Source: a virus. Taken from it: a stretch of 64,000 nt of DNA. A model generated the notes under the pieces. It had not been told where the DNA came from, did not search any database, and was given only the letters and a program-made list of their open reading frames with translations. The position numbers and the translations under genes were made by a program. The first letter of the stretch is position 1. Each line of letters begins with the position of its first letter. Positions 130 to 59,103 of this stretch are shown here, one piece after another. The DNA is taken from IMG/VR virus record IMGVR_UViG_3300042453_002958, positions 1 through 64,000 of that record. The stretch is one strand, 5' to 3'.

Positions 130-531
130 ATGCCGACCGACATCTTTCGCGCCGCGTCGCGGTTTCTCGAGGCCAAGCGGCACGCCGTCGCCACCAGCGA
201 AGTCGTCTACCGGCGCGACGACCGCGCCGTGTCGCTCCAGGCCACGATCGGCCGCACCGAGTACCAGCAGGACGACGGCTACGGGATCGTGACGCGGGCC
301 GAATCCCGCGACTTCCTGATCCGGGCTCTCGACCTCGCGATCGACGGCATCGTCACCCTGCCCGAGCCGGGCGACCGGATCGAGGAGCGCCAATGCGGCA
401 GCACGTTCGTCTATGAAGTGCTGCCGATCGGCGGACAGCAAGCGCACTACCGATACTCCGACCCATTCCGGCAAACGCTGCGCATCCACACCAAGCTCAT
501 CGGCGAAGAGGAGCAGCGATGCCCGCAGTGA
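130..531 (+). CDS. Putative head-tail connector / neck protein
   Basis: A 133-residue protein with no signal peptide or membrane segment. Its size, its place after the fibre gene and just before the tail completion protein, and its mixed alpha/beta composition fit a head-tail joining or stopper protein, but I recognise no diagnostic motif. It overlaps the next start by 13 bases, which suggests translational coupling. Phage B has no counterpart at this place: its glycan cassette sits between fibre and tail completion instead. Confidence 0.55.
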   Translation: MPTDIFRAASRFLEAKRHAVATSEVVYRRDDRAVSLQATIGRTEYQQDDGYGIVTRAESRDFLIRALDLAIDGIVTLPEPGDRIEERQCGSTFVYEVLPIGGQQAHYRYSDPFRQTLRIHTKLIGEEEQRCPQ

Positions 532-947
532 TCGTCGAGCTCGCCGACGCCGTCGTCGCCGCCATCGCCGGGCAGGTGTTTTCCATGCCGCTCACGGCGT
601 CGCGAAAGTACGTCCCGCACTTCGACCTGAAAGAACTCGACGGCGTGCAGGTGACGGTCATGCCGCGATCGGTCGCGCTGACCAACGCCACGCGCAGCCG
701 CGCCGCGCACGAGGTGCTCGTCGACGTGGCCGTACAGCGGAAAGTGCCCTACGGCACCCCCGCCGACGTGGATCCGCTGATGCAGCTGGTCGAGGAAATC
801 GCCGACCACCTGACCCGATTGGGCATGCCGACCGTGCCCGCGTCGTGGGTGCGGATGGCCAACGAACCGATCTACGCCGCCGAGCACATGCGGGAAAAGC
901 GGCTTTTCACGAGCGTGCTGACGTTCACCTACCTAGTGCATCGATAA
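519..947 (+). CDS. Tail completion / neck protein, homologue of the B gene at 39508
   Basis: A 142-residue protein clearly related to the 149-residue protein at 39508-39957. Both share an N-terminal helix, the block SMPLTASRKYVP (SMPVAASRKYVP in B) and a DPLMQLVEEI-type segment near residues 87-96. Conservation in both tail modules, upstream of the HK97 gp10-like gene, supports a structural role in neck or tail completion. Its exact position in the virion is inferred from gene order only. Confidence 0.65.
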   Translation: MPAVIVELADAVVAAIAGQVFSMPLTASRKYVPHFDLKELDGVQVTVMPRSVALTNATRSRAAHEVLVDVAVQRKVPYGTPADVDPLMQLVEEIADHLTRLGMPTVPASWVRMANEPIYAAEHMREKRLFTSVLTFTYLVHR

Positions 948-960
948 CCCGGAGGAATCC

Positions 961-1242
961 ATGTCGCCCGTCATGTCGCTATGGGAACAGATTCGGCTAC
1001 TCAACGAGTGGGCGCCGCTGCTCGGATACGGCCAGCGGTATCTGTCCGAAGTCGACCCGCACCGCCGGGTGCTGGTCGTCGTCGACGCCCTGGAGTGGCT
1101 CGCGTCGAAGACCGCGACCAAGCTCGACGACGAGCTCGTGTCGCACGTCACCGCGATCGCCAAGACGCCCGAGGGCGAGGGCTTCGTGCGGTTCCTCGTC
1201 GCCCAGGCCGACACGGTCGTCTCCGCGGAGGGCCGGGCATGA
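961..1242 (+). CDS. Conserved small protein of the papain cassette
   Basis: Ninety-three residues, preceded by a good GGAGGA ribosome binding site at about 951. The sequence is soluble-looking, with helices such as EWLASKTATKLDDELV. It opens a block of small overlapping genes (961-4248) that separates the two tail completion genes of A and has no equivalent between the same genes of B. By position it parallels the small gene at 50714 that opens B's papain cassette, though I see only weak resemblance. Function unknown. Confidence 0.7.
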   Translation: MSPVMSLWEQIRLLNEWAPLLGYGQRYLSEVDPHRRVLVVVDALEWLASKTATKLDDELVSHVTAIAKTPEGEGFVRFLVAQADTVVSAEGRA

Positions 1243-1487
1243 CCCAGAATCTGCTCCAAGTGCTCGTCGGCATCGGACTCGTCGGATACGCGGTCGTGCT
1301 GCTCGCCCAGCGGGCCAAGACCCTCCGTCTGCCGTGGGGCAAGACGGCCGAGCGGGCGCCGGTCGATGACCTGCGACTCGTCATCGACCTTGCCGCACGG
1401 CTGCGCGACGCCGGCAAGACCGACGCCGTGGCGGTCTGCCAAAAGTTGCTCGACGAGCTGCTCAAGCCGGGGGTGCCCACGCCGTGA
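1239..1487 (+). CDS. Small single-pass membrane protein
   Basis: Eighty-two residues starting at an ATG that overlaps the previous stop (ATGA). Residues about 4-23 are hydrophobic (LLQVLVGIGLVGYAVVLLA), followed by a basic stretch and a helical, charged C-terminal region with two leucine-rich turns. The topology suggests an anchor in the cytoplasmic membrane with a soluble tail. It is tightly packed between neighbours in the protease cassette, so a role with them is likely. Holin function is possible but not shown. Confidence 0.65.
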   Translation: MTQNLLQVLVGIGLVGYAVVLLAQRAKTLRLPWGKTAERAPVDDLRLVIDLAARLRDAGKTDAVAVCQKLLDELLKPGVPTP

Positions 1488-1885
1488 AGCCGTTCGTGCT
1501 ACTCGCCGCCGGTCTGGTGCTGCTCTTCGGCGTGCCGACGCTGCCGGAGGCCGTGCTGTCGTGGAGGCCGTGGCCGACCGTGTCGCCGGCCCCGGCCACA
1601 GCGTCGACGGCCGCCGTGTACGTCTGGGAAAAGGATGACCACGGCGTGCCGCCCCACGTCACACGGGCGGTAGACCGACTCAACCGCGAGCGGCGGGTCG
1701 TCGCCACGATTTTCGAGGCCGACGCGACCGACGGGACCGGCGACGTTCCCGAGCAGTACCGCACCGCGCTCGACGCCGCCCGCAAGGCCGGTCTGCCGGC
1801 CCTCGTCGCCATGGCCGGCCAAACCGTGCTCCGCGTGACGCCGGCCCCCGCCAGCGAAGACGCCGTCATGGAGGCCGTGCCGTGA
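1484..1885 (+). CDS. Exported small protein, unknown function
   Basis: A 133-residue protein read from GTG and overlapping the preceding stop by four bases. The N-terminus (MKPFVLLAAGLVLLFG) is a signal peptide or anchor, followed by a Pro/Ala linker and a compact domain containing VVATIFEADATD and GLPALVAMAGQTVLRV. The domain has a thioredoxin-like look (beta strand, then an Ala-rich helix, then LPALV) but lacks the CxxC pair. It is directly upstream of the papain-like protease and is probably co-expressed with it. Confidence 0.6.
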   Translation: MKPFVLLAAGLVLLFGVPTLPEAVLSWRPWPTVSPAPATASTAAVYVWEKDDHGVPPHVTRAVDRLNRERRVVATIFEADATDGTGDVPEQYRTALDAARKAGLPALVAMAGQTVLRVTPAPASEDAVMEAVP

Positions 1886-2796
1886 ACGCGTTCGACGACA
1901 TCGACCCGCGGCTGATCGACGTGTTCCCCGTGGAGCACGACGGCTACCCCGACCACCTCGCCGCCGAGGACACTACCGACGCCCTGCGCGACGCGTGCGG
2001 CAACGCCGCTCGCGACTTCCCGGACGCGCTCTGGATCGAGCCGCGCGAGTGGGCCGACCGGGCACGCGCGAACGACGCGGCAAACGCGTGGGGTCTCAAC
2101 TACATCGACCGCTTCACGAACCAGGGGGCCGGAGGCGGCCGACCTGGCACCCATGAATGCACCTGCCACAGTCTCCGCGCCAACGCGGAGGCGGCCCGCA
2201 ACCGGGCAAGGGGCGTCAGCTACCCCGACGGGCCGCGGAAGGATGCACGCTACCCCGAGTCGGCCCTCTACGGATCGGTGTGGCTGTCGCCGCTCAGTGT
2301 CTATGCCGAAGCGAACCCCGACCAGTGGGGCGGCGCCAACGTCCGCCGCGTGCTCGAAATCGCCGCCCGCCGCGGCATGCTGCCAGAGACGATCCAGCCC
2401 CGCGACTACGGCTTCCGGCATGCGATCGCCGGCACAGCCGGCCGCGGCGGCATGAATCAGGCCAGCGGCCGCTGGCTGCGGGTGTCGAAGTTCCCGGACG
2501 GCTGGCAAGAAACGGCCGCGCACTTCCGCCCGCTGGAGGTGATCTTCCCGGAAAGCTACGAGCAGGCCGTGTGCTGCGTGCTCCACGGACTCGTCGTCAG
2601 CGTCGGCCGCAACGGCCACGCGGTGCCGTGGGCGCGGTGGAACGCCGCCAAAAAGCTGATGGCCTACCCCGACTCCTACGACATCATCCGCTACGACTCC
2701 GAGCGGACCGCCCGATCGGCATGGCGTGGATCGTTCGCCATCGTGTCGATGACCACGCCCGACGATTGGATGCACCCCGCCGGAGGCAACCCATGA
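1882..2796 (+). CDS. Divergent papain-like cysteine protease
   Basis: A 304-residue protein with a papain-like pattern: NQG at residues 80-82, a Cys cluster THECTCHS (C93, C95) where the nucleophile is expected, and NGHAVPW with H246 as the likely catalytic His. The usual Asn-Ser-Trp third site is not obvious. The B protein at 51587 has a cleaner set (GSC, WNHC, NSWG), and both sit among tiny membrane genes, which supports the assignment. No signal peptide is visible, so export would need a partner or lysis. The substrate is unknown: peptidoglycan peptides, envelope proteins or phage proteins are all possible. Confidence 0.5.
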   Translation: MNAFDDIDPRLIDVFPVEHDGYPDHLAAEDTTDALRDACGNAARDFPDALWIEPREWADRARANDAANAWGLNYIDRFTNQGAGGGRPGTHECTCHSLRANAEAARNRARGVSYPDGPRKDARYPESALYGSVWLSPLSVYAEANPDQWGGANVRRVLEIAARRGMLPETIQPRDYGFRHAIAGTAGRGGMNQASGRWLRVSKFPDGWQETAAHFRPLEVIFPESYEQAVCCVLHGLVVSVGRNGHAVPWARWNAAKKLMAYPDSYDIIRYDSERTARSAWRGSFAIVSMTTPDDWMHPAGGNP

Positions 2797-3632
2797 GATT
2801 CTTTACCCTGCTCGCGATGCTGTTCGCCGCCACCGCCGCGGCGGCCCCGTGCTCCAACTGCGACGGCCACCGCGTCGTCGGCCCCGGCCCGGTGCTCTAC
2901 GCATGCCCGATCTGCGAAGGGACCGGCACCACGCCCGACATGCCGCCGGCCCCCGGCATCGCCGCCGCGGCCCCCGAGCCGGACCCCGAGCCGGCGATGA
3001 TGCGGGCGCTGCCCATCCAGGCCGAGCCGGCGCCGCCGGTCCGCGGCCGACCCCGGCCGGTCGTCGCCCGAATCGAGTCCGCGACCGGGCCAAGCCTGAG
3101 CTGCGGATCCGGGGTGCTGGTGGCGGCCAGCGGAACGCAGGCCATCGTGCTGACCAACTGGCACGTCGTCCGCGGGAGCCGCCACGACGTTCGCGTCTAC
3201 TGGCCGGACGGCTCCAAAAGCCCGGCCCGGGTCGTCGCGTCCGATGACGCATGGGATCTGGCGGCGCTCGTCGTCGCCCGACCGTCGGCCACGCCCGTGA
3301 CCATCGCCGCAACGGCCCCCCGGATCGGCGAGCCGCTGACCATCGCCGGCTATGGACCGCCCCCCTACCGCTACCGCGAGCAACGCGGCCCCGTCACCCA
3401 GTACGCGTCGCCCACGAACGAACACCCCGAGCAGTTCGTCGAGCTCCAGGCCACGGCGCGGCAGGGCGACTCCGGCGGCCCGATCTTCGACGCCCGGGGC
3501 GAGCTCGCCGGAGTGCTGTTCGGCACCCGCAGCGGCCACACGATCGGCCCGTGCTCCACGCGGCTGCGGGCATTCCTCGCCGCCGTCCACTGGCCCGACA
3601 CCTGCCCGGATGGGAGGTGCGCGAAGCGATGA
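2793..3632 (+). CDS. Exported trypsin-like serine protease with DnaJ-type Cys pairs
   Basis: A 279-residue protein. Residues 1-18 form a signal peptide, followed by two CxxC motifs (CSNC 20-23 and CPIC 38-41) with Gly patterns like the DnaJ zinc domain. A Pro-rich linker runs to about residue 90. A complete chymotrypsin-fold triad follows: H124 in TNWHVV, D155 in DAWDLAAL and S227 in RQGDSGGP. The family cleaves peptide bonds in the envelope space. The start overlaps the papain-like gene by ATGA, so two proteases of different clans are translated together. B lacks this gene. The role in the phage is unknown; host envelope processing or lysis is plausible. Confidence 0.8.
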   Translation: MRFFTLLAMLFAATAAAAPCSNCDGHRVVGPGPVLYACPICEGTGTTPDMPPAPGIAAAAPEPDPEPAMMRALPIQAEPAPPVRGRPRPVVARIESATGPSLSCGSGVLVAASGTQAIVLTNWHVVRGSRHDVRVYWPDGSKSPARVVASDDAWDLAALVVARPSATPVTIAATAPRIGEPLTIAGYGPPPYRYREQRGPVTQYASPTNEHPEQFVELQATARQGDSGGPIFDARGELAGVLFGTRSGHTIGPCSTRLRAFLAAVHWPDTCPDGRCAKR

Positions 3633-3967
3633 CGCGAATGCACGAGCTCGCCGACGCCCGCGACTACGCCTGGGCCGCCCTCGCCAAGACGCCCGTGCGC
3701 CGGGCGGTGCTCGGCCGGCTGGCGTGTGACTCCATCGTCCGCGTCGCCCTCGCCGAAATGCCGGACGACGAGCAGATGGCCGCGTGCCGGCTCGAGACGG
3801 AGCCGCACCGCCGACTCGTCGCCCGGACGGCCAAGCGGGTGCGGGATCGCTACGAACAGCAATGCGGATTCGCGTTCACGACATTCCTACTGTCGTGGGC
3901 CATCTCCGCGATCGTGCAGGCGCTCGTGATCCGGTGGTGGAACAAGCGGCGGGAGGCGGACAAGTGA
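3629..3967 (+). CDS. Small protein with C-terminal membrane anchor
   Basis: A 112-residue protein that overlaps the serine protease stop. Residues 1-80 are charged and helical, ending in RVRDRYEQQCG. A single hydrophobic segment (TTFLLSWAISAIVQALVI) then leads to a basic tail (RWWNKRR). The layout matches B's protein at 53592, where VREQWEARHG precedes one membrane segment ending in LWW. I infer homologous members of the papain cassette. Function unknown. Confidence 0.65.
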   Translation: MTRMHELADARDYAWAALAKTPVRRAVLGRLACDSIVRVALAEMPDDEQMAACRLETEPHRRLVARTAKRVRDRYEQQCGFAFTTFLLSWAISAIVQALVIRWWNKRREADK

Positions 3968-4248
3968 CGCAGCAGCAACGCGAAATATGGGAGGCCGCGA
4001 GCAAGTTCGGGGTGCCGTTCGTGGTGCTCGCGGTGCTGCTCTGGATGCTCCGCGAAGCGTCGCAAGCCATCCACGCGACCGTGCTGGTGCCGGTCGTCGA
4101 AAGCCACGTCGAGTTTCTCGACGGCATGGCCAGCACGCTCGAAGTGATCGCCGAAAGCCAGGACCGGCAAGCCGAAGCGATGCAAGAGCTGGCCGAAGGC
4201 CAGCGGGAAATCATCAACCGAATGGGCACCGCCGGGGGCCGACTGTGA
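3964..4248 (+). CDS. Membrane-anchored coiled-coil protein, holin or spanin candidate
   Basis: Ninety-four residues from GTG. A membrane helix (FVVLAVLLWML) near residues 18-29 is followed by a long heptad-like helix rich in Glu, Gln and Ala to the C-terminus. Phages often carry such N-in/C-out proteins in lysis cassettes (holin or inner-membrane spanin), but no family signature is visible. It overlaps its upstream neighbour (3964-3967) and the next gene's GTG. Confidence 0.55.
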   Translation: MTQQQREIWEAASKFGVPFVVLAVLLWMLREASQAIHATVLVPVVESHVEFLDGMASTLEVIAESQDRQAEAMQELAEGQREIINRMGTAGGRL

Positions 4249-4877
4249 TCGTCGCCGTCGAAAACAACACGAAGCGCGTTCGCGACGCGGCCCGGCGGGC
4301 CACGTTCAAGAATCTGGGCCACGCCGGCGCCGGGCTGCGGCTGGCCGCGCAGCGGCTGATCCGCACCCGGAAGGCGTCGAGCGATCCCGGGAAGCCGCCG
4401 CACACGCGGCAAGGGGCGCTCAAGCGGTCGATCCTCTACGCCGTCGAGGGCGACCATACCGTCGTCATCGGCCCGGCGGCCAGCATGATATCGGACGTGG
4501 CACGCGCTCACGAGCATGGCGGGCAACAGCGGCCACGAAGCCTCCGCGGCAAGACTCGCGAGCAGCTGCTCGCCGCCGGCACCAACTGGCGACTGCACGT
4601 CGGCGGCCACGGCCCGATCGGCGACGCCGCCGGAACCGCCTACATCAAGTTCACGAGCGAAGCGCAGGTCGAAAAAAGCGAGCGCTACATCGAAACCGCG
4701 CCCGGCGAAGCGTTCGGCAAGACCAAAAAGGCCCGCGACCAAGCCGAAAAGCGCCGCATTCGTGCCTCGCTCGCCGGCGGCATCGCCGCCACCTACCCCA
4801 AACGTCCTTTCATGGGGCCGGCCCTCATGAACAACCTCGACAGACTGCCCGCCATCTGGGCGAACAGCGTCCGCTGA
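4245..4877 (+). CDS. HK97 gp10-like tail completion / minor virion protein
   Basis: A 210-residue protein from GTG. It has the hallmark order of the gp10/virion morphogenesis family: an N-terminal basic helix, a segment about GKPPHTRQGALKRSI near residues 50-65, and RPFMGPAL close to the C-terminus. B's protein at 39960 shows the same layout (SRPGTPPHTHV and RPFMHPAM). The family joins the tail tube to the neck in siphoviruses. It precedes the tail tube gene, as expected. Confidence 0.7.
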   Translation: MIVAVENNTKRVRDAARRATFKNLGHAGAGLRLAAQRLIRTRKASSDPGKPPHTRQGALKRSILYAVEGDHTVVIGPAASMISDVARAHEHGGQQRPRSLRGKTREQLLAAGTNWRLHVGGHGPIGDAAGTAYIKFTSEAQVEKSERYIETAPGEAFGKTKKARDQAEKRRIRASLAGGIAATYPKRPFMGPALMNNLDRLPAIWANSVR

Positions 4878-22701: not shown

Positions 22702-23731
22702 CACGCGGCACGTTCTGCCGCTGTTTTGCGACGACCTGATCGCGTCCACCGTGGACATGACGCCCGCGTGCTTCGGCGCGTACATGCGGCTCATCTGCTA
22801 CGCGTGGACGCGCGGCGGACTGCCGAACGACGAGCGAGCATGCGATCGGATCGCCGGCGGGATGGAGCCGGGGGATTGGGACACCATCCGGCCGCGACTG
22901 ATCGAGCTGGACGACGGCCGCTTGAGCCACGACCGCCTCGAGCGGGAGCGGGCGGCGGTTGACAGCATGGCCGAGAAGCGATCCGAAGCCGGCCGGAAGG
23001 GAAACGACACCCGCTGGGGATCGCAAACGGATCGCAAAGCGATCGCAAACGGATCGCAAAGCGATCGCAAAGCCATCGCAAACGAATCGCGTGCTTCTTC
23101 GGATTCTGCGCCATGGCCCGTCGACCGGGCCGGATGTCGGGAATCCGATTCGGAATCGAGTTCCATCGACACCCGCGAATCTCCGGCAAAAACCGCGGTT
23201 CGATCGCAAAGCGATCGCAAACGGATCGCAAACGGATCGCAAAGCGATCGCAAAACGATCGCCCCTACTCCTACCCTACTCCTACCCAAGCAAGAGGAAA
23301 GACAATACGCGCGCGCCGACGGCGAAACGCCGCAGCCGGGGGCCGGGAACGCGGGGCCAGAGCCGGGGGCCGACGGGGACCCCGCGGCGGCCACGAAGCC
23401 CGCGGCCCGCCCGCGGCGGCCCGGATGGGTGCATGACGAGTGGGCGCGGATCGTCGAGGTGTGGAACGCGACCGATCGCGCCGTGCCCTGGACGCTCGTG
23501 ACGCCGCCGAACGGATTCGCCGACCTTGCCGCGTCCCCGGGGTGGGTCGCGCAAGCCCTCGCGGCGGTCGCCATGCTCCCCGAGTGCCGACGGTTCGAGC
23601 GGCCCGTGCCGTGGACGCAGTTCGTGCGGGATCTGGACCGGATTATCGCCGGCGAGTTCCGCGATCCGAGGGAGGCCCCGCGCCAGCTGGCCGCAGCCGG
23701 GGGCCGCCCGCAACGAAGGGGAAATCTATGA
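22685..23731 (+). CDS. Replication protein (DUF1376/YdaU-like) carrying the origin
   Basis: A 348-residue protein. The N-terminal domain (LPLFCDDLIASTVDMTPACF, then AYMRLICYAWTRGGLPNDE) matches the DUF1376/YdaU domain of phage replication initiators. A low-complexity middle (residues about 110-195) is encoded by two arrays of 11-base repeats and reads as repeated SQSDRKAIAN. The C-terminal domain (VHDEWARIVEVWNATDRAVP onward) may load helicase. I start at 22685 because GGAGG precedes it. As in lambda O, the origin appears to lie inside the initiator gene. Confidence 0.75.
   Translation: MARKPDTRHVLPLFCDDLIASTVDMTPACFGAYMRLICYAWTRGGLPNDERACDRIAGGMEPGDWDTIRPRLIELDDGRLSHDRLERERAAVDSMAEKRSEAGRKGNDTRWGSQTDRKAIANGSQSDRKAIANESRASSDSAPWPVDRAGCRESDSESSSIDTRESPAKTAVRSQSDRKRIANGSQSDRKTIAPTPTLLLPKQEERQYARADGETPQPGAGNAGPEPGADGDPAAATKPAARPRRPGWVHDEWARIVEVWNATDRAVPWTLVTPPNGFADLAASPGWVAQALAAVAMLPECRRFERPVPWTQFVRDLDRIIAGEFRDPREAPRQLAAAGGRPQRRGNL
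23018..23083 (+). repeat. Iteron array 1 (six 11-base units)
   Basis: Six consecutive units of SSATCGCAAAS (most commonly GGATCGCAAAC or CGATCGCAAAG), each exactly 11 bases, with a seventh degenerate unit after 23083. The period is close to one turn of the DNA helix, so bound protein would lie on one face. Confidence 0.9.
23201..23266 (+). repeat. Iteron array 2 (five 11-base units plus one degenerate)
   Basis: Five units of the same 11-base consensus, 117 bases after array 1 and in the same orientation, then CGATCGCCCCT. The pair of arrays within the replication gene marks the probable origin, 23018-23266. Confidence 0.9.
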
Positions 23732-34847: not shown

Positions 34848-36758
34848 ATGAGCGACACGATCACGGTCGACGGCGGCGAAACGATCATCGTGGCGCCGGA
34901 CGCGTGCGCGACCGCTGACTGCGAAGTGCTCGTCAGCATCGTCACGGGCCAGGACGGTGCCGTCGGGCCAGCCGGACCGCAGGGGCCGGCGGGTGCAGCT
35001 GGACAAACCGGACCCGCCGGGGCCGCCGGGCCGCAGGGACCGGCAGGGCCAGCCGGGGCAACGGGGGCAACGGGGCCAGCAGGGGCGACCGGGGCCGCAG
35101 GGCCGACCGGACCGCAGGGGCCGGCGGGGGCGGCCGGTGCCGCCGGCCCGCAAGGGCCAGCCGGGCCAGCCGGCACGACGACCTGGGCCGGGATCACGGA
35201 CAAGCCGGCCACGTTCGCGCCGTCCGATCATGCCCACGGCGCCATCACGCCCGACGGAAGGATCGGCGACAACACGACATCAGGGCGATTCGTCGTCACG
35301 ACCGACCTGGGAGACCTGGCCACGGCCGGCGCCTCGACGGGCAGGTCGCTGCTCGGCCTCGGCGGCGCGGCGACGCTGAACGTCGGCACCGCGGCCGGCA
35401 CGGTGGCGGCGGGCAACGACGCGCGGCTCTCCGACGCGCGGACGCCGACGGCCCACACCCACGCCAACCTCGGCACGGAGGATGCAAAGCAAGACTTCTA
35501 CATCAACCTCGCCAACGGCCTGCCAAACATCGAAAACGGCGTGCCGACTGAGGTAAACCATCGCGCCGTGGCGTGGATTCAGAATAGAAGCCACTTCGGC
35601 GCGGGTCGGTTCAATCATTACGGCGAGTTCCCGGCACACGCCGGGCAATATAGCGCGACTTTCGGATGGGCCTGTCACGTCATCGACAACACAACTTCAT
35701 CGGACGGCAATCAAGCGAAGGGCAGTTTCGCCGCCGGTTACGGCAACACTGTCGGCGCGTCGATGTCGTCGGCGCTCGGCCAATACAACCTCGTCCGAAA
35801 CGTAGGGCACGCGATTGGCGCATACAACCAGGTCGGCGGATCGGGCGACCAGATTGTGGCGCACAACTGGACAAGCCCGACCGCAAGCCACTCTGTCGAG
35901 ATCAGCGGAAACAGGTCATCGACGTATCCCGTAGGCACTGTGGTTGCGGTCCTTTTGGCGAGCGCCTCGAATGTGGACTCTTGGCAGCCAAACAAGGTTT
36001 CGGCGGTCTCCTACAACGCCGGAACGAACAGGACCGTGATTACGCTTGTCGCGCCGGCCGAGTTTCAAGCGGCCACGACTGATTTTTTGGAGCAGGCGAG
36101 CGGGATCGGACAATCCAACGTCCTTACTCGCTCTCTGATCTGCACGCTAAACGGCGGCGGCGAGGGGATCGCGATCGGATGGCGAAACATCATCCCGACA
36201 TCCCGCGGGTTCGCAATCGGTACCGATCACAACCTGGTGGGCCAACACGGATTCGCGCTCGGTCGCCAGGTCGTGACGAAGAACGCCTACCAGGGCGGCT
36301 TTGGAACCGGCTACCTGATGAACGGCTCGACGCGGCATATCGCGCAGATGAATATGTGGTGCCTGAAGCGGCGCACCACCGACGCCACGCCGGCGGTGAT
36401 GACGATCGACGGACTGTCCACGGTGGCCTCGACCAACTCCATCATTTTAGAGGAGCGGTCGGTATATCGGATGCGATTTGAAATCGCCGGACGTGGGACT
36501 GGGGACATAGCCTACGGCGAAACAATCACGGCAACCGTCAAGCGAGACGGGTCTTCAAACCTGACGATTGTCGGGCAGGCGAGCTCTAACAAGCACACCG
36601 ACAGCGGCCTTTCGACTGCATCTGCCACCCTAAAAGCAAACGGGACGCTCGACTCCGTAGAGCTGGAAGTGACCGGCGTCGCTGGGACCACGATCATCTG
36701 GCACGCATACGTCGAGGCGTCGCAAATCTCAAACGACTACACGGCAAACTCTTTGTAA
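34848..36758 (+). CDS. Collagen-like tail fibre with YadA-type C-terminal repeats
   Basis: A 636-residue protein. Residues about 38-110 are Gly-x-y collagen repeats ([13 protein letters not shown] type), which form a trimeric shaft. Then comes a typical fibre hinge ([20 protein letters not shown]). The C-terminal half contains left-handed beta-roll signatures like YadA heads ([35 protein letters not shown]). Codon bias drops sharply after about 35470, so the C-terminal host-contact part looks acquired separately from the shaft. The last 126 bases around the stop recur at base 1. Confidence 0.82.
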
Positions 36759-36792
36759 TGCCTGCCAAAAACAGGGAGGCGGCGACGCTCTG
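36667..36792 (+). repeat. 126-base exact direct repeat, right copy
   Basis: Identical to bases 1-126. It covers the end of the fibre gene and its stop. The left copy continues into a neck gene, this one into the glycan cassette. Confidence 0.97.
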
Positions 36793-39507: not shown

Positions 39508-39957
39508 ATGTCGATCGCCGTGCAGATTGCCGACTCGCTCGCCGCAGCCCTGTCGGCGTATCCGCTCTCCATGCCAGTGGCTGCTTCCCGCAAATACGTC
39601 CCTGACTACGACGGCACCGAGCTGCAGTCGCTGCGAGTGGCCGTGGTGCCGGGACCGATTGAGACCGAGCGCGTGGCGCGCGGACAAGACCTGTTCACGC
39701 ACTCTGTAATGGTCATGATTGGCAAGGCCACAGACGGCAGTAACGAGCAGATAGATCCGCTCATGCAGCTCTGCGAGGAGATCATGGACGCGATCCGCAG
39801 CGGCACCTTGGGCACTGCGGGGATGCCGGACAATGCGAAATACTTCGGCTCGACGTTCGACGCGACGTTTGACCGCGACAACCTCAACGACCGCCGCATG
39901 TTTCTCGCCCAGATCGGGGTTACGTACCGGGTGCCACGCGAACACGTATTGGTGTAG
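39508..39957 (+). CDS. Tail completion / neck protein, homologue of A 519
   Basis: A 149-residue protein clearly homologous to A's 519 protein (SMPVAASRKYVP, QIDPLMQLCEEI). In B it is immediately followed by the gp10-like gene, whereas in A a 3.3-kb protease and membrane block separates them. That difference shows the block is a movable cassette. Confidence 0.65.
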   Translation: MSIAVQIADSLAAALSAYPLSMPVAASRKYVPDYDGTELQSLRVAVVPGPIETERVARGQDLFTHSVMVMIGKATDGSNEQIDPLMQLCEEIMDAIRSGTLGTAGMPDNAKYFGSTFDATFDRDNLNDRRMFLAQIGVTYRVPREHVLV

Positions 39958-39959
39958 CC

Positions 39960-40730
39960 ATGCAGTTCATGCCAATCGGCGGCAATCCATTCGGGGCCGC
40001 CCTCAGCGGCGGCTTTCGGATCCCGAGTATTTCGCTGCGGGTCAGCACGAGCTTTTTCTTTGACCGGGACGCCGTGAAGTCTTCCCTGAGCGCTATGGAG
40101 CTAAAGGCGCTCTCCAAGGGCTCGATGCGGATCAAGGACTACGCCAAGCGGTCCATTCGCAAGATGGGGGCAGGCCGCCCCCGGCTCAAGATCATGAAAG
40201 ACAACCCCGGGGTGGCGCTGGCCGCGCTCGCCTCCAGGCCGACGACGAGCCAGCGGACGCGACGCACGCTGCAAACCAGGATCATGGAGATTCAGACCAG
40301 GCCGCCGTCTCGCCCGGGCACGCCACCGCACACGCACGTCCCCTACTCGCACATGCTTGGGTTTCGCCGAAACCTGTGGAACTACTTTGATCCGCAGACA
40401 CGGTCGGCGGTGGTCGGTCCCAGCAAGAAGGGCAAGATGCTGCCATACCTGCATGAGTTCGGCGGGACTCAGACTCTGTCGGTTTGGGTATTTCGCAACC
40501 GCTACCCAGGTGGCCAGGTCATCACGAGAACCGGTGCCACAGGAGACCGGCCGAGAAACTCCGCGATGTGGCAGGTGACCTCGCAGCGGCGGACGGTCAC
40601 GTATCCTGAGCGGCCATTTATGCACCCAGCGATGATGCGTGCTGTCGCAAACGGGGATCTCGCGAAGGCGTTCGGCGGCCAGTTCAGCGTGGCGCAGGCC
40701 GGCCGCGGGACGTTCATCCGTGGGTCGTAG
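39960..40730 (+). CDS. HK97 gp10-like virion protein
   Basis: A 256-residue protein. A basic N-terminal helical region (SMRIKDYAKRSIRKMGAGRP) is followed by RPGTPPHTHVPYS near residues 118-130 and YPERPFMHPAMM near the C-terminus, the same order as in A 4245. The extra N-terminal length sets it apart. Role: tail tube to neck joining. A short promoter-like AT-rich stretch with two GTAYACTGAC repeats (40735 and 40751) follows it. Confidence 0.65.
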   Translation: MQFMPIGGNPFGAALSGGFRIPSISLRVSTSFFFDRDAVKSSLSAMELKALSKGSMRIKDYAKRSIRKMGAGRPRLKIMKDNPGVALAALASRPTTSQRTRRTLQTRIMEIQTRPPSRPGTPPHTHVPYSHMLGFRRNLWNYFDPQTRSAVVGPSKKGKMLPYLHEFGGTQTLSVWVFRNRYPGGQVITRTGATGDRPRNSAMWQVTSQRRTVTYPERPFMHPAMMRAVANGDLAKAFGGQFSVAQAGRGTFIRGS

Positions 40731-50713: not shown

Positions 50714-51049
50714 ATGACCGCTGATTTCAGCCGCGTCGAGCTCTACCTGTCGGACGCCCGCAAAGCCGCGGCGGACGGGCTGACGTGGGCAGAGTTCGGC
50801 GAGCTGCTGGTGGCGTTCTTGAAGATCGCCATGGCCATGTACGACGAGGTCGCGAGCATGACCGGCGAGCAGAAGAAAGCCGCCGTGCTCGCCGGGGTTG
50901 GCCGGCTATTCGACGTGGCGGCCGACAACTGCATCCCGCTCATGCTCTGGCCGGTGTGGGGGCTCGCCCGCGGCCCGGTCCGGCTCCTGGTGCTGGCCCT
51001 CGCCAGCGGTGCCATTGAACAACTTCTCCCGCTCGTGAGGGTCCGATGA
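50714..51049 (+). CDS. Small protein opening B's papain cassette, membrane-tail type
   Basis: A 111-residue protein with an amphipathic N-terminal half (DARKAAADGLTWAEFGELLV) and a hydrophobic C-terminal stretch (IPLMLWPVWGLARGPVRLLV). Overlaps the next gene by ATGA. It could be membrane-associated. By position it matches the small first gene of A's cassette (961). Confidence 0.55.
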   Translation: MTADFSRVELYLSDARKAAADGLTWAEFGELLVAFLKIAMAMYDEVASMTGEQKKAAVLAGVGRLFDVAADNCIPLMLWPVWGLARGPVRLLVLALASGAIEQLLPLVRVR

Positions 51050-51600
51050 TCGCTCTCGCTCTGATCGCCGCCGCGGCCGTGGCGTTTGGCTGGCCGCAGC
51101 TCGCTCCGCTCGTCGAGAAGGCCAAGGCCGTGGCCCCCACGCTCACGCCCCGCCACTACGCCGGCATCGCCCTGGTGGCTGCGGCGATCGCGTATGGGTT
51201 TGCCCCCGGCCCCGGCCCGGCCCCCGGCCCGTCGCCGGCACCCGATCCCGGCCCGCTGTCGCTGCGGGGGTTGTTCGCCGGCCCCACGGCGTCCGAGGAC
51301 GCCGTCTTGGTGGGGGCCATGTGCGACGAGATCGCGGACGAGATCCAGTTTGCCGCTGGCCAGCCGGAGGGCTATCTGGCCACCGGGGTGGCTGTCGATG
51401 AGCTGCGGCGGCGGGTCCGCGAGTTTCGCTGCCGGGGTATTTCGATCGGGGACCGGCAGCCGGCAGCCCGGGACGCGATCGCCAAGTTTCTCGAAGGGGC
51501 GGTCGGCACGGACGGCGGCCCGCTGAGTGCCGAGCAGCGATCGGCGTGGGTGGCGGCGTACCGCGACGTGGGGAGGGCGGCGACCGATGCGGCGAAGTAG
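51046..51600 (+). CDS. Membrane-anchored protein with Pro-rich stalk
   Basis: A 184-residue protein. A hydrophobic N-terminus and a second hydrophobic segment (IALVAAAIAYGFA) near residue 50 are followed by a Pro-Gly stalk (PGPGPAPGPSPAPDPGP) and a helical domain of about 110 residues. The arrangement places the domain outside the cytoplasmic membrane, held off by a stalk. It directly precedes the papain-like protease and overlaps it by 14 bases, so partnership is likely. Confidence 0.6.
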   Translation: MIALALIAAAAVAFGWPQLAPLVEKAKAVAPTLTPRHYAGIALVAAAIAYGFAPGPGPAPGPSPAPDPGPLSLRGLFAGPTASEDAVLVGAMCDEIADEIQFAAGQPEGYLATGVAVDELRRRVREFRCRGISIGDRQPAARDAIAKFLEGAVGTDGGPLSAEQRSAWVAAYRDVGRAATDAAK

Positions 51601-52732
51601 CGAATGGACCTGGTCGGCGATCGCGTTCGTCGTGTTCGCGGCGGTGCTGGGCACGCTCGTGTCCCGCTACGTGTCGCGGATCGCCGACAGGGTCGAGACG
51701 AACTACGGTTACCTGCCGGACCCGGAGGGGACGCGGGAGTTTCTCCGCGAGCTCGACCAGCCGATGTTTCGCCAGGCCGGGGCCGAGGTGATCGCCGGGG
51801 CCAAGGGCCACGACGCATACCTCTATCGGTTCGCTGACCGCTGCCACCGGCAGAAGTACGGCAAGCCATTCGGGCCGTGGAACCAGGGGCCGCACGGGTC
51901 GTGCGTGTCGTTTGGCTGGGCGATGGGCTCCTACGTTGGCCAGTGCGTTGACCACGTCGCGGGCGGGCTGGCGGAGTGCCCGCTGCTGGTGGCGACCGAG
52001 CCGATCTACGGCGGCTCGCGGACCGCGGGGCGGATGCCGCCGGTGGTCACGGCCGGGTATTCGGACGGCTCCTACGGCGGGGCCGCGGCCCGCTGGGTGT
52101 CGGGCCGGTGCCGCGACACCACCGTGGGCGGGATCCTGTACCGGCAGAAGTACGGCGACGTCGATCTCTCGGCGTACTCGATCGACCGCTCCCGGGCGTG
52201 GGGCAACTCGGGCGTGCCGAAGCCGCTCGCGGTGCTGGCCAACCAGCACACCGCCACGGCCGTCGCCCTGTGCGAAGACTGGGACTCCCTGGTCTCGGCT
52301 CTTGAGTCGGGCATGTGCGTCCCGGTGTGCTCGAACGTCGGGTTCGCGTCCGGCGACCGCGACGCCGATGGGTTCTGCCGACGGGCGTCCACCTGGAACC
52401 ATTGCCTCGTGGCGATCTCTGTGAAGTACGCCAAGAACAACGGCCCGGGCTCCGCCACCCCGATGAAGAATCCCCGCGACGGCGTCCTGCTGATGAACAG
52501 CTGGGGCTCCTACGTGGGCGGGGGCAAGCACCCGCTCGATCAGCCGGACGGCTCGTTCTGGATCACGCGGGCCGACGCCGAAGCGATTCTTGCCCAGGGC
52601 GATTCGTTCGTAATCGGCTCGGTCAACGGCTTCAAGTACCGCGACCTCGACCACGCCGGCTGGCTGCAGCCGGCCCCGGCCCCAACCGACGCCGCGAAGG
52701 TGCCGGCCATCAACCACTCGCTCGCTCTGTAG
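51587..52732 (+). CDS. Membrane-anchored papain-like cysteine protease
   Basis: A 381-residue protein. An N-terminal membrane helix (SAIAFVVFAAVLGTLVS, about 10-26) is followed by a long linker. The C1-type catalytic set is complete: Q100 and C106 in NQGPHGSCVSFGWA, H272 in TWNHCLVAIS and N304 in LLMNSWGS. The enzyme hydrolyses peptide bonds and is tethered to the membrane. Several extra Cys suggest disulfides outside the cytoplasm. A carries a divergent relative at 1882. Lysis, envelope entry or cleavage of a host surface protein are open options. Confidence 0.85.
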   Translation: MRRSSEWTWSAIAFVVFAAVLGTLVSRYVSRIADRVETNYGYLPDPEGTREFLRELDQPMFRQAGAEVIAGAKGHDAYLYRFADRCHRQKYGKPFGPWNQGPHGSCVSFGWAMGSYVGQCVDHVAGGLAECPLLVATEPIYGGSRTAGRMPPVVTAGYSDGSYGGAAARWVSGRCRDTTVGGILYRQKYGDVDLSAYSIDRSRAWGNSGVPKPLAVLANQHTATAVALCEDWDSLVSALESGMCVPVCSNVGFASGDRDADGFCRRASTWNHCLVAISVKYAKNNGPGSATPMKNPRDGVLLMNSWGSYVGGGKHPLDQPDGSFWITRADAEAILAQGDSFVIGSVNGFKYRDLDHAGWLQPAPAPTDAAKVPAINHSLAL

Positions 52733-52740
52733 GTGACCCC

Positions 52741-53001
52741 ATGACCAAGCGTGCCATCGTTCTCTCGTGTCTCGCGTGTCTCGTGGCCGGTTATTTGGCC
52801 GCTTCGGTCCCGGGCTTCGACCCGGTGAACCCGTTCAACCCCCGGCCCCAGCGGCCGTTTCTCCAGCTCATTTCGCGGCTGGCGAAGCTCGGGTTGTGGG
52901 TCACGGTTTTCGCCGAGCCAGCCCCGCGGCCGGTCGAGCAGCAATACGCCGCCGCACACTGTGACGACAGGACCATGATCTGCCACGCGGAGGGATGGTG
53001 A
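52741..53001 (+). CDS. Exported or membrane small protein
   Basis: Eighty-six residues. A signal-like N-terminus (RAIVLSCLACLVAGYLAASV) is followed by a Pro-rich segment and a hydrophobic helix (LISRLAKLGLWVTVFAEPAP). Two Cys near the C-terminus may bond. It follows the protease gene by 8 bases. Spanin-like topology is possible but unproven. Confidence 0.5.
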   Translation: MTKRAIVLSCLACLVAGYLAASVPGFDPVNPFNPRPQRPFLQLISRLAKLGLWVTVFAEPAPRPVEQQYAAAHCDDRTMICHAEGW

Positions 53002-53252
53002 TGCTTCAACTTGTCGTTTGGGTCGTTTTCGGATGGATCGCGGGCTCCGTCGCGGAGTGGTTGTGGCCACCTGCGAAGCCGCACGCCAAGTGGCAGACGA
53101 TCGCCATTGGCGTGATCGGATCGGTGGCCGGTGGTTTGGCCGGTTCGCTCGTGAGCGGCGACCACTACCGGCCGGCCGGGATCGTGCTGTCGGTGCTGGG
53201 GGCGGTGGCGTGCATGTTCGTCTGGCGCAAACTCGATGAGGTGAAGCCGTGA
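53001..53252 (+). CDS. GlsB/YeaQ-like small membrane protein
   Basis: Eighty-three residues with three hydrophobic segments (VVWVVFGWIAGSVAEWLWP, IAIGVIGSVAGGLAGSLV, IVLSVLGAVACMFVW). The G-I-G-S-V-x-G-G pattern resembles transglycosylase-associated (GlsB/YeaQ/YmgE) proteins. Such a protein near a lysis-type cassette could act as a holin. I start at 53001 because the ribosome binding site is too close to the earlier ATG at 52995. Confidence 0.55.
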   Translation: MLQLVVWVVFGWIAGSVAEWLWPPAKPHAKWQTIAIGVIGSVAGGLAGSLVSGDHYRPAGIVLSVLGAVACMFVWRKLDEVKP

Positions 53253-53581
53253 GCATGGTGTGGCGGTGGGTTATTTCGATGCTCGTGTGGCTGTCGGCCG
53301 ACCACGAGCGGATCGCCACCGAGCCGGCCCGGGCGGCTGCGGCCGTGGCGGTGGCCCGCGCGTCGATCATCGAGCAGATGGAGGCCCGGCCCCTGCCCCC
53401 GGCCCCGCCGGGGCCGACGGCGTGCAAGTGCTCGGCCACCTGCGTGCGTGGGTCGTGGCGGCCCGATGGCCGCATCGAGGCCCGGTGCGATTGCACCTGC
53501 CCGCGGTGCGTGGCGGAGCGGGCGAAGCCCGGCACGGTTCGATCGGGGACGTGCCAGAGCGGTACGTGCCCGCCCCGGTGA
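53249..53581 (+). CDS. Membrane-anchored Cys-rich small protein
   Basis: A 110-residue protein from GTG. A short hydrophobic N-terminus (VWRWVISMLVWL) leads into an Ala-rich helix, a Pro-rich hinge and a Cys cluster (CKCSATC and CDCTCPRC) typical of a metal or disulfide knot. It is the sixth small gene of B's cassette. Unknown function. Confidence 0.5.
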   Translation: MSMVWRWVISMLVWLSADHERIATEPARAAAAVAVARASIIEQMEARPLPPAPPGPTACKCSATCVRGSWRPDGRIEARCDCTCPRCVAERAKPGTVRSGTCQSGTCPPR

Positions 53582-53591
53582 GGGCGACCAG

Positions 53592-54005
53592 GTGAACGAC
53601 GCGATCGTCCAGCTGCAGGCACACGTACGCTACCGGCTGGGCACGCGGGTGACCTACGCCCATGCGTGGCGGGTCGATGCCCTGAGCCGGCTGGTGCTCC
53701 GGCATTGGCCGCACGCCCACCTGGAGGATGCCGTGGTGGCCGGTGGCCGCCACTCGATCGCGGTCACCCATGCCATGACCTTGATGCGGTCGCAGGTCCG
53801 CGAGCAGTGGGAGGCCCGGCACGGGTCGGGGCCGCTATGGGATCTCGTGCTGGGTGGCACGGTCACGGCCACCGGCATGATCCTGCTCGATCTCTGGTGG
53901 CCGAGCCCGGGGTGGCGGTCAATCCTGGTGGCGATGTCGCGGTCACTGGCTGACGATCGCCAGCACGGCGTCGATGGCGTCGTGGATCGCCCGGGCCAGT
54001 TGTGA
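53592..54005 (+). CDS. Small protein with C-terminal membrane segment, like A 3629
   Basis: A 137-residue protein from GTG. Helical N-terminal part, then VREQWEARHGSG and a membrane segment (LVLGGTVTATGMILLDLWW), followed by a charged tail. The layout matches A's 3629 protein, which suggests a shared cassette member. Its 3' end overlaps, on the other strand, a small leftward gene at 53943. Confidence 0.55.
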   Translation: MNDAIVQLQAHVRYRLGTRVTYAHAWRVDALSRLVLRHWPHAHLEDAVVAGGRHSIAVTHAMTLMRSQVREQWEARHGSGPLWDLVLGGTVTATGMILLDLWWPSPGWRSILVAMSRSLADDRQHGVDGVVDRPGQL

Positions 54006-55193: not shown

Positions 55194-55242
55194 GGTCTCG
55201 GTCTCCTGGTTGTGGCCGCGGGTTTCGTCCCGCGTCGGTCTA

Positions 55243-55271
55243 GTTATATTCGATCGGCAAATAGGTGTCAA
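55243..55271 (-). promoter_or_regulatory. Leftward promoter with CGATCGGCAAATA spacer (copy 4)
   Basis: On the minus strand: TTGACA, exactly 17 bases, TATAAC. Its spacer, on the plus strand, reads CGATCGGCAAATA, shared with three other leftward promoters in the cluster. Confidence 0.8.
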
Positions 55272-55301
55272 GTGGTGAGAAAAGTTTTTTTGGTTGTGGG
55301 G

Positions 55302-55535
55302 TCAGGCCCGGCCGTCGGCCTTGTGGATCCGGGGCCGCCCGCGGCCGACCGGGTCGCGAGTCCATTTCTCGCAAGCGGTGCGGAGGGCGAAGAAATAGCC
55401 GTCGATCTCGATACCGGCGATGCCCCCGGCCCCCGGCCCCTTCTTGACGAGCTCGCGGAGATAGTAGCGCGAGACTCCGGCGAGCCGGGCTCCGGTCTGA
55501 ATCGATACGTACGCTTTGGGGTCGATCTTTGCCAT
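55302..55535 (-). CDS. Excisionase-like helix-turn-helix protein, like A 26670
   Basis: Seventy-seven residues. KIDPKAYVSIQTGARLAGVS, then RYYLRELVKKG, is a MerR/Xis helix-turn-helix with a wing (GIEIDGYFFALR) and a basic tail. It parallels A's 26670 protein from the first residues on. It may bind the shared spacer elements. Its own -10 lies so close to the start that its mRNA may be leaderless. Confidence 0.65.
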   Translation of the reverse strand: MAKIDPKAYVSIQTGARLAGVSRYYLRELVKKGPGAGGIAGIEIDGYFFALRTACEKWTRDPVGRGRPRIHKADGRA

Positions 55536-55540
55536 GGGTG

Positions 55541-55569
55541 CATTATTGCCGGGCGGCTGCGGCGGTCAA
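55541..55569 (-). promoter_or_regulatory. Leftward promoter of the helix-turn-helix gene
   Basis: On the minus strand, TTGACC followed after 16 bases by AATAAT (or 17 by ATAATG). The -10 ends about 6 bases before the start codon at 55535, so transcripts would start at or near the ATG. Confidence 0.5.
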
Positions 55570-55609
55570 GCCGGGTTGTCTGCTGGTTGTGCATGGGTTG
55601 TCCGTGCGG

Positions 55610-55849
55610 TCAGTCCGCGAACATGGGGACGCAACGGGCGACCGGCTGCCGGGCCGGGCCGACCGGAGCACCGGCGGCGTCCAGGTCGAGCAGGAAGCGG
55701 TCCGCGGCCCGGCGGGCATCGGTGCCGGGCTGGGCGTGGCGGTCCGCCTCGCGGGCATCGGCGAGCGCGAGGGCGTCAACCGCCCGGCGGATGCTGTCGG
55801 GCATCGCGGAGTAACGGGAGGCGAGTCGGGCGAAGGTGGCAGCGGTCAT
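55610..55849 (-). CDS. Small helical leftward protein
   Basis: Seventy-nine residues, Ala/Arg-rich helices (SIRRAVDALALADAREADRH). The leader is CCACAACCAGGAG, as in other genes of the cluster. No family recognised. Confidence 0.5.
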   Translation of the reverse strand: MTAATFARLASRYSAMPDSIRRAVDALALADAREADRHAQPGTDARRAADRFLLDLDAAGAPVGPARQPVARCVPMFAD

Positions 55850-55891
55850 GGCGTCGGGCTCCTGGTTGTGGGTTGGTTGTGGTGGGGTCGG

Positions 55892-56170
55892 TCAGTTGGG
55901 CAGCCTGCAGTTGCGAGCGTGGCGGTCAATCGTCTCGCACCAGGTGCGGACGGCCGCCCGGGTGTCCGCCATCGTGGCCGGGCTCGTGCGGACGTCGAGC
56001 GTCCAGGTGTAGCCGTCGAAAGCGAAACAATCTGCGAGCCATCGGCGGCCGGAAAAGTCGCGGCGGATGTGCACGCGGCCGGTTAGCTGGCCGGCCGGGT
56101 TGTGCACGGCATATCCCGCCGTGGTCGCCGTGGCGGTCGTGCCGTGCGCGAACGTGATGAACGTGGCCAT
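55892..56170 (-). CDS. Small beta-rich leftward protein
   Basis: Ninety-two residues, started at 56170 after the CCACAACCAGGAG leader. A Thr-rich N-terminal sheet (TFITFAHGTTATATTAGYAV), RRWLADCFAFDGYTWTLDV and a helical end. It may be a small barrel. Unknown role. Confidence 0.55.
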   Translation of the reverse strand: MATFITFAHGTTATATTAGYAVHNPAGQLTGRVHIRRDFSGRRWLADCFAFDGYTWTLDVRTSPATMADTRAAVRTWCETIDRHARNCRLPN

Positions 56171-56274
56171 GGTTGTGCTCCTGGTTGTGGCGGTTGGTTG
56201 TCGGGTGGCGATGTGCCAGCCGGCCCGGTTCCCGCCGTCCTCCGTGGGGCGGCGGTGGCCGGGGCGGCCGGGCG

Positions 56275-56883
56275 TCACGGGTAGCCGCGGACCTCGTCGA
56301 GCACGGCCCCGGCTGCGGCTGTCTGCCGGCGGATCCGGGCGATGATGCCCGCGGACGTCTTGAGCTGCGGCACCTTGACGAACGGGTGAACGGGCTGCCG
56401 GTCGGCGAGTCGCAGCCCGGCGGACGGGCGACGGTAGACGTGGTAAGGCTCCCAGCGCTGGCCGGTGTGGGCGGCCCGCCACGACTGCGCCGCGGCGTCG
56501 ATGGCGTACTCGATCGCGGACAGTTCCGCGACCGCGGCGGCGACCGCGTCTTGCCGGGCAGCTTCACGAGCGGCCCGGGCACGATCGGCGGCGGCGGCTT
56601 CCAGCCGATCGGCGTCGGCACGGATCGCGTCCACGGTGGCCGGTGTGATGCTGGCATAGGTGAACACGCACACGCTCCCGACGATCGCGGTGCGGCCGTC
56701 GTCGAGGTTGTGGAGCGTGAACAGGTAGCGCAGCCCGTGGTGGCCGCACGAGCAGCGGCCCACGGCCCGGGGTAGTTCGCAGCAGTCGCCCCGATACTCC
56801 CAGCGGGAGCCGTCGCCAAGGGCAGCGGCGAGCCGTTCGGCGTAGTGGCAGCGGTTACGGGCTTGGGTGGCGGTCGTGGTCAT
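56275..56883 (-). CDS. Leftward early protein with zinc-finger-like N-terminus
   Basis: A 202-residue protein. CCELPRAVGRCSCGHHGLRY at about 34-53 offers a C2HC-like metal site, followed by LFTLHNLDDGRTAIVGSVCV. Residues 80-140 form a long Ala/Arg helix, and a C-terminal segment is basic. It is the first gene after the promoter at 56931. DNA or RNA binding is plausible. Confidence 0.6.
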   Translation of the reverse strand: MTTTATQARNRCHYAERLAAALGDGSRWEYRGDCCELPRAVGRCSCGHHGLRYLFTLHNLDDGRTAIVGSVCVFTYASITPATVDAIRADADRLEAAAADRARAAREAARQDAVAAAVAELSAIEYAIDAAAQSWRAAHTGQRWEPYHVYRRPSAGLRLADRQPVHPFVKVPQLKTSAGIIARIRRQTAAAGAVLDEVRGYP

Positions 56884-56930
56884 GGTCTCGGGTCTCCGGT
56901 GGTTGTGGCCGTCGTGGCCGTGGTGGTGGT

Positions 56931-56959
56931 GTTATATCCAATCGGCAAATAGGATGCAA
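56931..56959 (-). promoter_or_regulatory. Leftward promoter with CAATCGGCAAATA spacer (copy 3)
   Basis: On the minus strand: TTGCAT, 17 bases, TATAAC. The spacer differs from its relatives by one base in the CGATCGG core. Confidence 0.75.
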
Positions 56960-56977
56960 GGGGTCAAGAAAAGTTTT

Positions 56978-57292
56978 TCAGTCCAGGTGCTCCGCGAGCT
57001 CCCACGCGGCCCGGGCCGCGGCGGCGGCGATGTCGTCCACGCTCGGCCGCTGGCGCTTCCCGCCGCGGCGGCGGCGGTTCAACTCGTCGGCACAGTAGTT
57101 GATTTCGTCGGCGTAGTAGCCGTGGTTCGGCTGGTCCGGCCATGCTTCGAGCGTGGCGCGGCAATCGGCGATCACGTAGAGCAGTTCGGCGTCCGATCGG
57201 CTGCGGCACAGTTTGGGGTAGGCCGCGTGGTCGATGTGCTTGGTGGCGGCGGGGTGGTCCATCCAGCCGGTCGCGTTGGTTGTGGTGCTCAT
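56978..57292 (-). CDS. Small acidic leftward protein
   Basis: A 104-residue protein started at 57292. Helical: SDAELLYVIADCRATLEAWP, GYYADEINYCADELNRRRR, then an Ala-rich helix. Two aromatic-Cys motifs (YVIADC, INYCAD). The leader contains CCACAACC. No separate promoter is seen, so it is probably read from 58470 along with the 335-residue gene. Function unknown. Confidence 0.55.
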   Translation of the reverse strand: MSTTTNATGWMDHPAATKHIDHAAYPKLCRSRSDAELLYVIADCRATLEAWPDQPNHGYYADEINYCADELNRRRRGGKRQRPSVDDIAAAAARAAWELAEHLD

Positions 57293-57398
57293 GGTCTCGT
57301 CTCTCCGTTGGGGTTGGTTGTGGGTTGTCGGGCGACGCGCCCGGCATCCCCCTGGCCGGCCGCGGCGGATGCCGGGGCCGGCGTGGGGGCGGCCGTGC

Positions 57399-58406: not shown

Positions 58407-58469
58407 TTGAGATTCTCCGTTCTTGGTGTTGTGGGCCGGTTTTCCCGCCGGCCCGATCGGGTTGTGCAG

Positions 58470-59078: not shown

Positions 59079-59103
59079 GGTCTCTTGCTCCCGTGTTGTG
59101 ATG

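Follow-up and report, generated by a model that had tools for sequence, protein, structure and literature searches.

A movable protease cassette of temperate siphophages and its possible role in late disruption of the host envelope

We analyzed the first 64 kb (the window) of the 77,375-base IMG/VR virus record IMGVR_UViG_3300042453_002958, which contains two compact blocks of small genes at bases 961 to 4248 (cassette A) and 50714 to 54005 (cassette B), each encoding a papain-like cysteine protease and small membrane proteins. The A type is movable, the two types replace one another non-orthologously, and one or the other occurs in every near-complete phage of the group that we examined. We tentatively favor the reading that the cassette is a late host-envelope disruption (lysis or egress) module of Planctomycetota siphophages in which the papain-like protease would replace the peptidoglycan-cutting endolysin.

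Movement and replacement of the cassette

The simplest reading of the record is that assembly joined a closed phage circle of 36,666 bp (phage A) to a nearly complete second phage (phage B) via a shared gene, because bases 1 to 126 recur exactly at 36667 to 36792 and the last 400 bases of the record (76975 to 77375) are 90% like the collagen-like gene of phage A. The 126-base exact end overlap of phage A is k-mer-like, and phage B lacks roughly 1.2 kb within its own collagen-like gene. The repeat and the match at the record end rule out a single 77-kb phage and bear out a preliminary description of the window, which had spoken of two phages. Both are temperate siphophages with a GpA-type terminase, a lambda-type portal, a fused protease-capsid, and an integrase.

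Cassette A consists of seven genes (Table 1), and each neighboring pair shares 4 bases (ATGA or GTGA stop/start). The last gene likewise shares 4 bases with the gp10-like tail gene at 4245 (GTGA junction), and this stop/start coupling to tail genes suggests late expression. The cassette separates a tail-terminator-like gene from the gp10-like gene, and the counterparts of these two genes adjoin in phage B. The tail-terminator-like proteins, compared over 17 phage genes, belong to a single family, and the gp10-like genes of A and B are homologous (hhalign 98%, E 5.6e-14). Cassette B follows a deoxynucleoside monophosphate (dNMP) kinase gene at 49247, with genes 49987 and 50217 between. The preliminary description had drawn this same picture of an overlapping-gene block splitting two tail genes that adjoin in B, with a similar block after the kinase. 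It had also listed the papain-like protease and small membrane proteins of block A, while overlooking the exported trypsin-like protease at 2793 to 3632 and the C-terminal CxxGxC tail. Its list of members shared by the blocks held up in part: the VRxxxE/transmembrane (TM) proteins A6 (3629) and B7 (53592) are the only pair homologous by profile (hhalign 82%, E 1e-5), and no homology between the blocks was detectable for the opening genes (961 and 50714), the stalk proteins, or the two proteases.

The A-type cassette was found at three sites, and its carriers belong to two head lineages that are unrelated to each other. Site i, as in phage A, lies between the tail terminator and the gp10-like gene. 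Site ii lies after the dNMP kinase, between genes 49987/50217 and 53592/54472 of the phage B layout, which is the exact B-type slot. Site iii lies between the S78 prohead protease and capsid genes of contig G418, which has an unrelated, HK97-type head module; contig G403 resembles this layout by gene order. Slot ii ends the late plus-strand operon, ahead of opposite-strand lysogeny genes, and there the A and B types replace one another non-orthologously between an opening gene (50714) and a closing gene (53592) common to both. A homologue of B1 (50714) opens most other A-type cassettes (53 of 69 loci in the second scan) and is absent from phage A itself. The cassette is thus movable, as the preliminary description had proposed, and modularly replaced.

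By tblastn, no match to either protease was found among INPHARED phages. In IMG/VR, relatives of the type A protease appeared in 29 stretches in a first scan and then in 133, and those of the type B protease appeared in 589. At the 29 loci of the first scan, the other cassette A genes co-occurred in 22 to 27, whereas the adjoining tail genes did so in 8 to 10; co-occurrence of the cassette A genes is far beyond chance. All eight capsid-selected contigs of at least 35 kb that we searched hold one B-type protease each (8/8). Among three shorter contigs, G417 (picked by its capsid) and G418 (picked by the phage A gene at 15534) hold an A cassette, and G416 (capsid picked) ends in the tape-measure gene, before the cassette slot. 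No contig examined contained both types. Relatives of the type B protease were present in 12 of 392 sampled genomes and occur in Planctomycetota (Blastopirellula marina, Gemmata, and a Planctomycetota metagenome-assembled genome); the hosts are therefore most likely Planctomycetota, judging from these relatives.

Proteases and CxxGxC-tailed partners

In the type B protease (B3), Q100, C106, and H272 were invariant and N304 was conserved in at least 90% of 37 sequences down to 25% identity, and a TM segment was present in 59/59 family members (TM counts, here and in Table 1, come from simple hydropathy rather than a dedicated predictor). Its AlphaFold model had a mean predicted local distance difference test score (pLDDT) of 88.6 and a predicted template modeling score (pTM) of 0.83. 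With Foldseek against the PDB, the best match to this model was xylellain (3ois; E 1.5e-9, prob 1.00), followed by cathepsins, papain, and the Clostridioides difficile S-layer protease Cwp84. Thus, type B is predicted to have the papain (C1A) fold. It resembles the C1A peptidases xylellain, the cathepsins, and Cwp84 in that fold and in its Q-C-H-N residues, but it has no Pfam Peptidase_C1 match by sequence, carries an N-terminal membrane anchor, and is encoded in a phage cassette.

For the type A protease (A4), the putative catalytic residues Q81, H246, and D272 were invariant in 62/62 relatives and C93 was present in 62 of 63, with Asp (D272) standing where papain has Asn. The relatives have the papain Q-to-C spacing of +6; in the copy in the window, 6 additional residues separate Q from C. 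A divergent member in G417 reads HQGGSHEC, and GHAVAVAGW at the His. Because the AlphaFold model of A4 was poor (pLDDT 40) and a fold search with it returned noise and no fold match, "papain-like" refers for type A to the motif. PDB searches by sequence or profile gave nothing for either protease, and homology between types A and B was found neither by BLASTP nor by hhalign (run twice).

The second enzyme of cassette A, A5, has a trypsin domain (PF13365, E 4.7e-22), and its His-Asp-Ser triad and four ribbon cysteines were unchanged in 58/58 family members. By domain and triad it is a clear member of the PF13365 trypsin-like peptidases; unlike them, it has a preceding CxxC ribbon, a trailing CxxGxC tail, and a phage cassette context. 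Among 627 predicted proteins of 11 phages, 11 end in CxxGxC, one per phage and all within the cassette. The carriers are the 2793 family in the A type and the 53255 family or its neighbor in the B type. Seven further phages repeated the pattern, giving 18/18 with exactly one such protein, always in the cassette; these counts are approximate, as our own simple gene caller was used, and in G408 and G414 the CxxGxC gene was missed by the caller and is visible in the DNA. At two planctomycete-genome loci, the gene that directly follows the protease encodes a lipoprotein-like Cys-ribbon protein with SSGCSSGRCR or SRGCRGGRCR at its C-terminus, and one of the two has a thioredoxin domain above the Pfam cut-off. 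Thioredoxins lie in the operon of some planctomycete-genome loci (PF13899, E 5.5e-7; PF00085, E 1.5e-6). The tail sits on otherwise dissimilar exported proteins, namely, trypsin, thioredoxin, or ribbon-only proteins.

Possible late envelope disruption and alternative functions

Late coupling, export signals, universality, mutual exclusivity, and non-orthologous replacement together suggest that the cassette does something essential at the envelope late in infection. Self-contained modules that can be exchanged in this way are characteristic of lysis cassettes, such as the holin-endolysin-spanin cassettes SRRzRz1 of lambda and Y-K-LysABC of P2, the latter also among tail genes. Like these, the cassette is a small, compact, mobile late module, one per phage, of small TM proteins and one enzyme, with non-orthologous replacement. 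Unlike these, it encodes a papain-like protease in place of a recognized peptidoglycan hydrolase and an extra exported trypsin or Cys-ribbon protein, and it has no significant match to holin or spanin models.

Amidase_2, Phage_lysozyme, Peptidase_M15_4, and CHAP gave no match in 15 phage records even at E 1, positive controls included. No peptidoglycan hydrolase was among the best 25 of 38 to 77 Pfam families for the 103 proteins of A and B or for 111 unassigned proteins of seven relatives. The muralytic endolysin of a canonical lysis cassette was thus recognized in none of the 15 records, A, B, or relatives. The preliminary description had seen no standard endolysin and had staked its idea of a lysis or envelope-processing system on two points, that both phages lack a canonical endolysin-holin pair and that the cassette families co-occur in other genomes; both points withstood the searches.

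According to a passage in PMC3035269 (citing Liesack 1986), the planctomycete envelope consists of Pro/Cys-rich protein with stabilizing disulfides. Because no endolysin was found and the hosts would have such a Cys/Pro-rich, disulfide-bonded envelope, a protease-led lysis cassette is our best guess. The type B protease would be anchored outside the membrane, and the type A protease would stay in the cytoplasm until one of the small membrane proteins lets it out late in infection. An exported CxxGxC Cys-ribbon partner (with a trypsin domain in A, with a thioredoxin domain in some planctomycete prophages, and ribbon only in B) may act with the protease, and together they would cut, and possibly reduce, the disulfide-stabilized protein envelope. 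The small TM proteins (1239, 3964, and 3629; 50714, 52741, and 53001) may serve as holin- or spanin-like membrane partners. Cassettes contain small single-TM proteins, and, as read by eye and with no significant PHROG support, holin-like two-TM proteins stand beside the related protease at three planctomycete-genome loci (L145, L147, and L148) and one is fused to the protease partner at a fourth, L149.

Two kinds of known lysin offer partial parallels. Phage lysins of the CHAP and NlpC/P60 types belong to the same broad papain-like superfamily (PMC10318531) and, like the cassette protease, are enzymes of phage late cassettes. However, the closest solved structures to protease B are proteinases, and CHAP was not found in the 15 phage records. 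Like signal-arrest-release (SAR) endolysins with pinholins, the type B enzyme is anchored by an N-terminal TM segment and predicted to lie outside the cell membrane; unlike them, it is not a glycosidase or transglycosylase.

Several points weigh against envelope disruption by the cassette. Chief among them, planctomycete sacculi are peptidoglycan and lysozyme sensitive (PMC4432640), and a protease alone may therefore not suffice for lysis. Sites i and iii lie inside head or tail genes, the HExxH protein in slot ii of phage A could be the lytic enzyme there, and the type A protease has no export signal and is papain-like by motif. A divergent endolysin could have been missed, and holin and spanin models gave no significant match to the cassette TM proteins. 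Phage exit from planctomycetes, which were long credited with disulfide-bonded protein walls and are now known to contain peptidoglycan as well, appears to be little studied: our literature search turned up no publication about a lysis enzyme from a phage of these bacteria, and one such phage in culture was reported to exit without lysis (PMC10945688).

Among other functions, we considered envelope remodeling or superinfection exclusion, in which, during infection or lysogeny, anchored proteases would clip surface proteins of the host that serve as receptors and so bar other phages. Membrane anchors and exported proteases would suit such trimming, nearly all of the near-complete phages fetched have an annotated integrase-like gene, and slot ii adjoins the lysogeny module. 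However, the coupling to tail genes suggests late expression, and universality with mutual exclusion of types goes beyond what optional exclusion genes usually show; we regard this function as unlikely. A virion assembly or maturation module, whose proteases process tail or fiber proteins and for which site i is the functional context, seems somewhat less likely again. Sites i and iii are among tail or head genes and every near-complete phage examined has one cassette, as this would predict, but most members have signal or TM segments, unlike virion assembly factors, and the cassette changes place among three sites and accompanies head modules of two unrelated kinds. Moreover, the phages already encode another protease for head maturation (part of the capsid fusion in A and B, a separate S78 in G418), which rules out that role for the papain enzyme. 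We give little credence to a phage protein-sorting or redox system in which the papain-like enzyme would act on the CxxGxC tail as its substrate or as a redox tag: the single tailed protein in 18/18 phages, always in the cassette and on three kinds of protein, is what it would produce, but a simpler role for the tail, in metal binding or as part of the ribbon, is conceivable. Least probable of all is packaging and injection of the cassette proteins to breach the envelope at entry, since the late coupling with tail genes and the envelope-directed enzymes are offset by predicted signals and anchors that imply export from the cytoplasm and by the lack of any noticed fusion to tail or tape-measure proteins in the loci examined.

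A broader form of the lysis reading, which we put forward with more reserve than its core, is an undescribed type of phage egress, in which papain-like and trypsin-like proteases with exported, CxxGxC-tailed redox or Cys-ribbon partners would lyse a protein envelope and replace murein endolysins throughout Planctomycetota phage lineages. If true, lysis by these phages would be based on proteases, their lysis genes would have been replaced wholesale, and the enzymes could be used to open hard-to-lyse bacteria. The cassette is in any case a concrete, conserved, and testable candidate module, and the names and boundaries given here cover families outside the reach of Pfam and PHROGs.

Cassette genes and other features of the window

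Table 1. Genes of the two cassettes, their flanks, and the slot ii pair of phage A (aa, amino acids)
Feature	Position	Strand	Description
A1	961..1242	+	93-aa soluble helical protein, opens cassette A; TM in none of 50 relatives
A2	1239..1487	+	82 aa; one N-terminal TM and conserved PVDDLRLVIDLAARLRD...LLDELLKP segment; TM in 50/52 relatives
A3 (stalk)	1484..1885	+	133 aa, signal-anchored, probably exported, hydrophobic N-terminus; directly upstream of protease; family conserved
A4	1882..2796	+	304-aa papain-like cysteine protease without signal sequence; putative catalytic Q81, C93, H246, D272
A5	2793..3632	+	279-aa trypsin-like serine protease; signal peptide, CxxC...CxxC ribbon, trypsin domain, C-terminal CPDGRCAKR tail
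A6	3629..3967	+	112-aa VRxxxE protein, one C-terminal TM; one TM in 51/51 relatives
A7	3964..4248	+	94 aa; N-terminal TM, then coiled coil; spanin- or holin-like anatomy; TM in 48/50 relatives
B1	50714..51049	+	111-aa opening protein, C-terminal half hydrophobic; common to B-type and most A-type cassettes
B2 (stalk)	51046..51600	+	184 aa, membrane-anchored; directly upstream of protease; in 79/80 B-type loci
B3	51587..52732	+	381-aa membrane-anchored cysteine protease, papain family (predicted C1A fold); Q100, C106, H272, N304
B4	52741..53001	+	86-aa TM protein, conserved C-terminal [IV]xHAxGW; relatives in 61/80 B-type loci
B5	53001..53252	+	83-aa glycine-rich multi-TM protein, related to Transgly_assoc (GlsB/YeaQ-like); in 41/80 B-type loci
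B6	53255..53581	+	108-aa Cys-ribbon protein, C-terminal CQSGTCPPR; CxxGxC tail in 28/33 relatives
B7	53592..54005	+	137-aa VRxxxE protein, last gene of cassette B
Tail-terminator-like gene	528..947	+	upstream of cassette A; counterpart in B 39508-39957
HK97-gp10-like gene	4245..4877	+	downstream of cassette A; counterpart in B 39960-40730
Slot ii pair of phage A	15384..16178	+	48-aa membrane peptide and 214-aa HExxH metallopeptidase-like protein (gene at 15534)

Few of the small proteins matched known families. A1 weakly matches phrog_402 (unknown function; E 9.9e-5 over 27 residues), A7 weakly matches phrog_1402 (unknown function) and no functional family, and A2 had no significant match in Pfam or PHROG. 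A thioredoxin-like fold suspected for A3 was not supported on testing. B5 matches PF04226 at E 6.7e-5, slightly below the curated cut-off.

Parts of cassette B recur in other settings. B1 relatives were present in 70 B-type and 25 A-type loci of the first scan, with one in the planctomycete-genome locus L142, and B2 relatives stand upstream of the protease at L142 and four further loci (L112, L113, L141, and L144). C-termini like that of B4 (INHAQGW, IDHRQGW) also follow the protease in Blastopirellula-type loci, B6 lies between B4 and B7 in G408 and G414 as well, and B7 relatives follow A-type cassettes in slot ii at 10 loci.

The protein encoded at 15534, possibly a second lytic enzyme of phage A, has an HEHQH motif and a weak DUF6782 match. 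The HExxH pair forms a second mobile unit and occurs in many, not all, relatives, after the dNMP kinase or between the terminase and portal genes (L225-L231). A canonical endolysin in place of the cassette was not seen in slot ii of relatives; there, the kinase was followed by the HExxH pair, by an SPFH-like protein (by eye), or directly by the opposite-strand genes. At L259:6558-7082, the slot after the dNMP kinase encodes a 174-aa protein that reads by eye as SPFH/stomatin-like.

Three further elements lie outside the cassettes. In the replication region of phage A, an 11-base repeat (GATCGCAAA[CG]G...) forms two arrays, at 22997 to 23101 and 23180 to 23284, which lie within the gene at 22685 or next to it. 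A 37-base, operator-like element with GATCGGCAAATAG as its common end occurs four times at 55228 to 59125, within the lysogeny region of phage B. A transfer RNA gene, tRNA-Arg (tcg), is predicted at 57116 to 57205 on the plus strand, whereas the surrounding lysogeny genes of phage B are on the minus strand.

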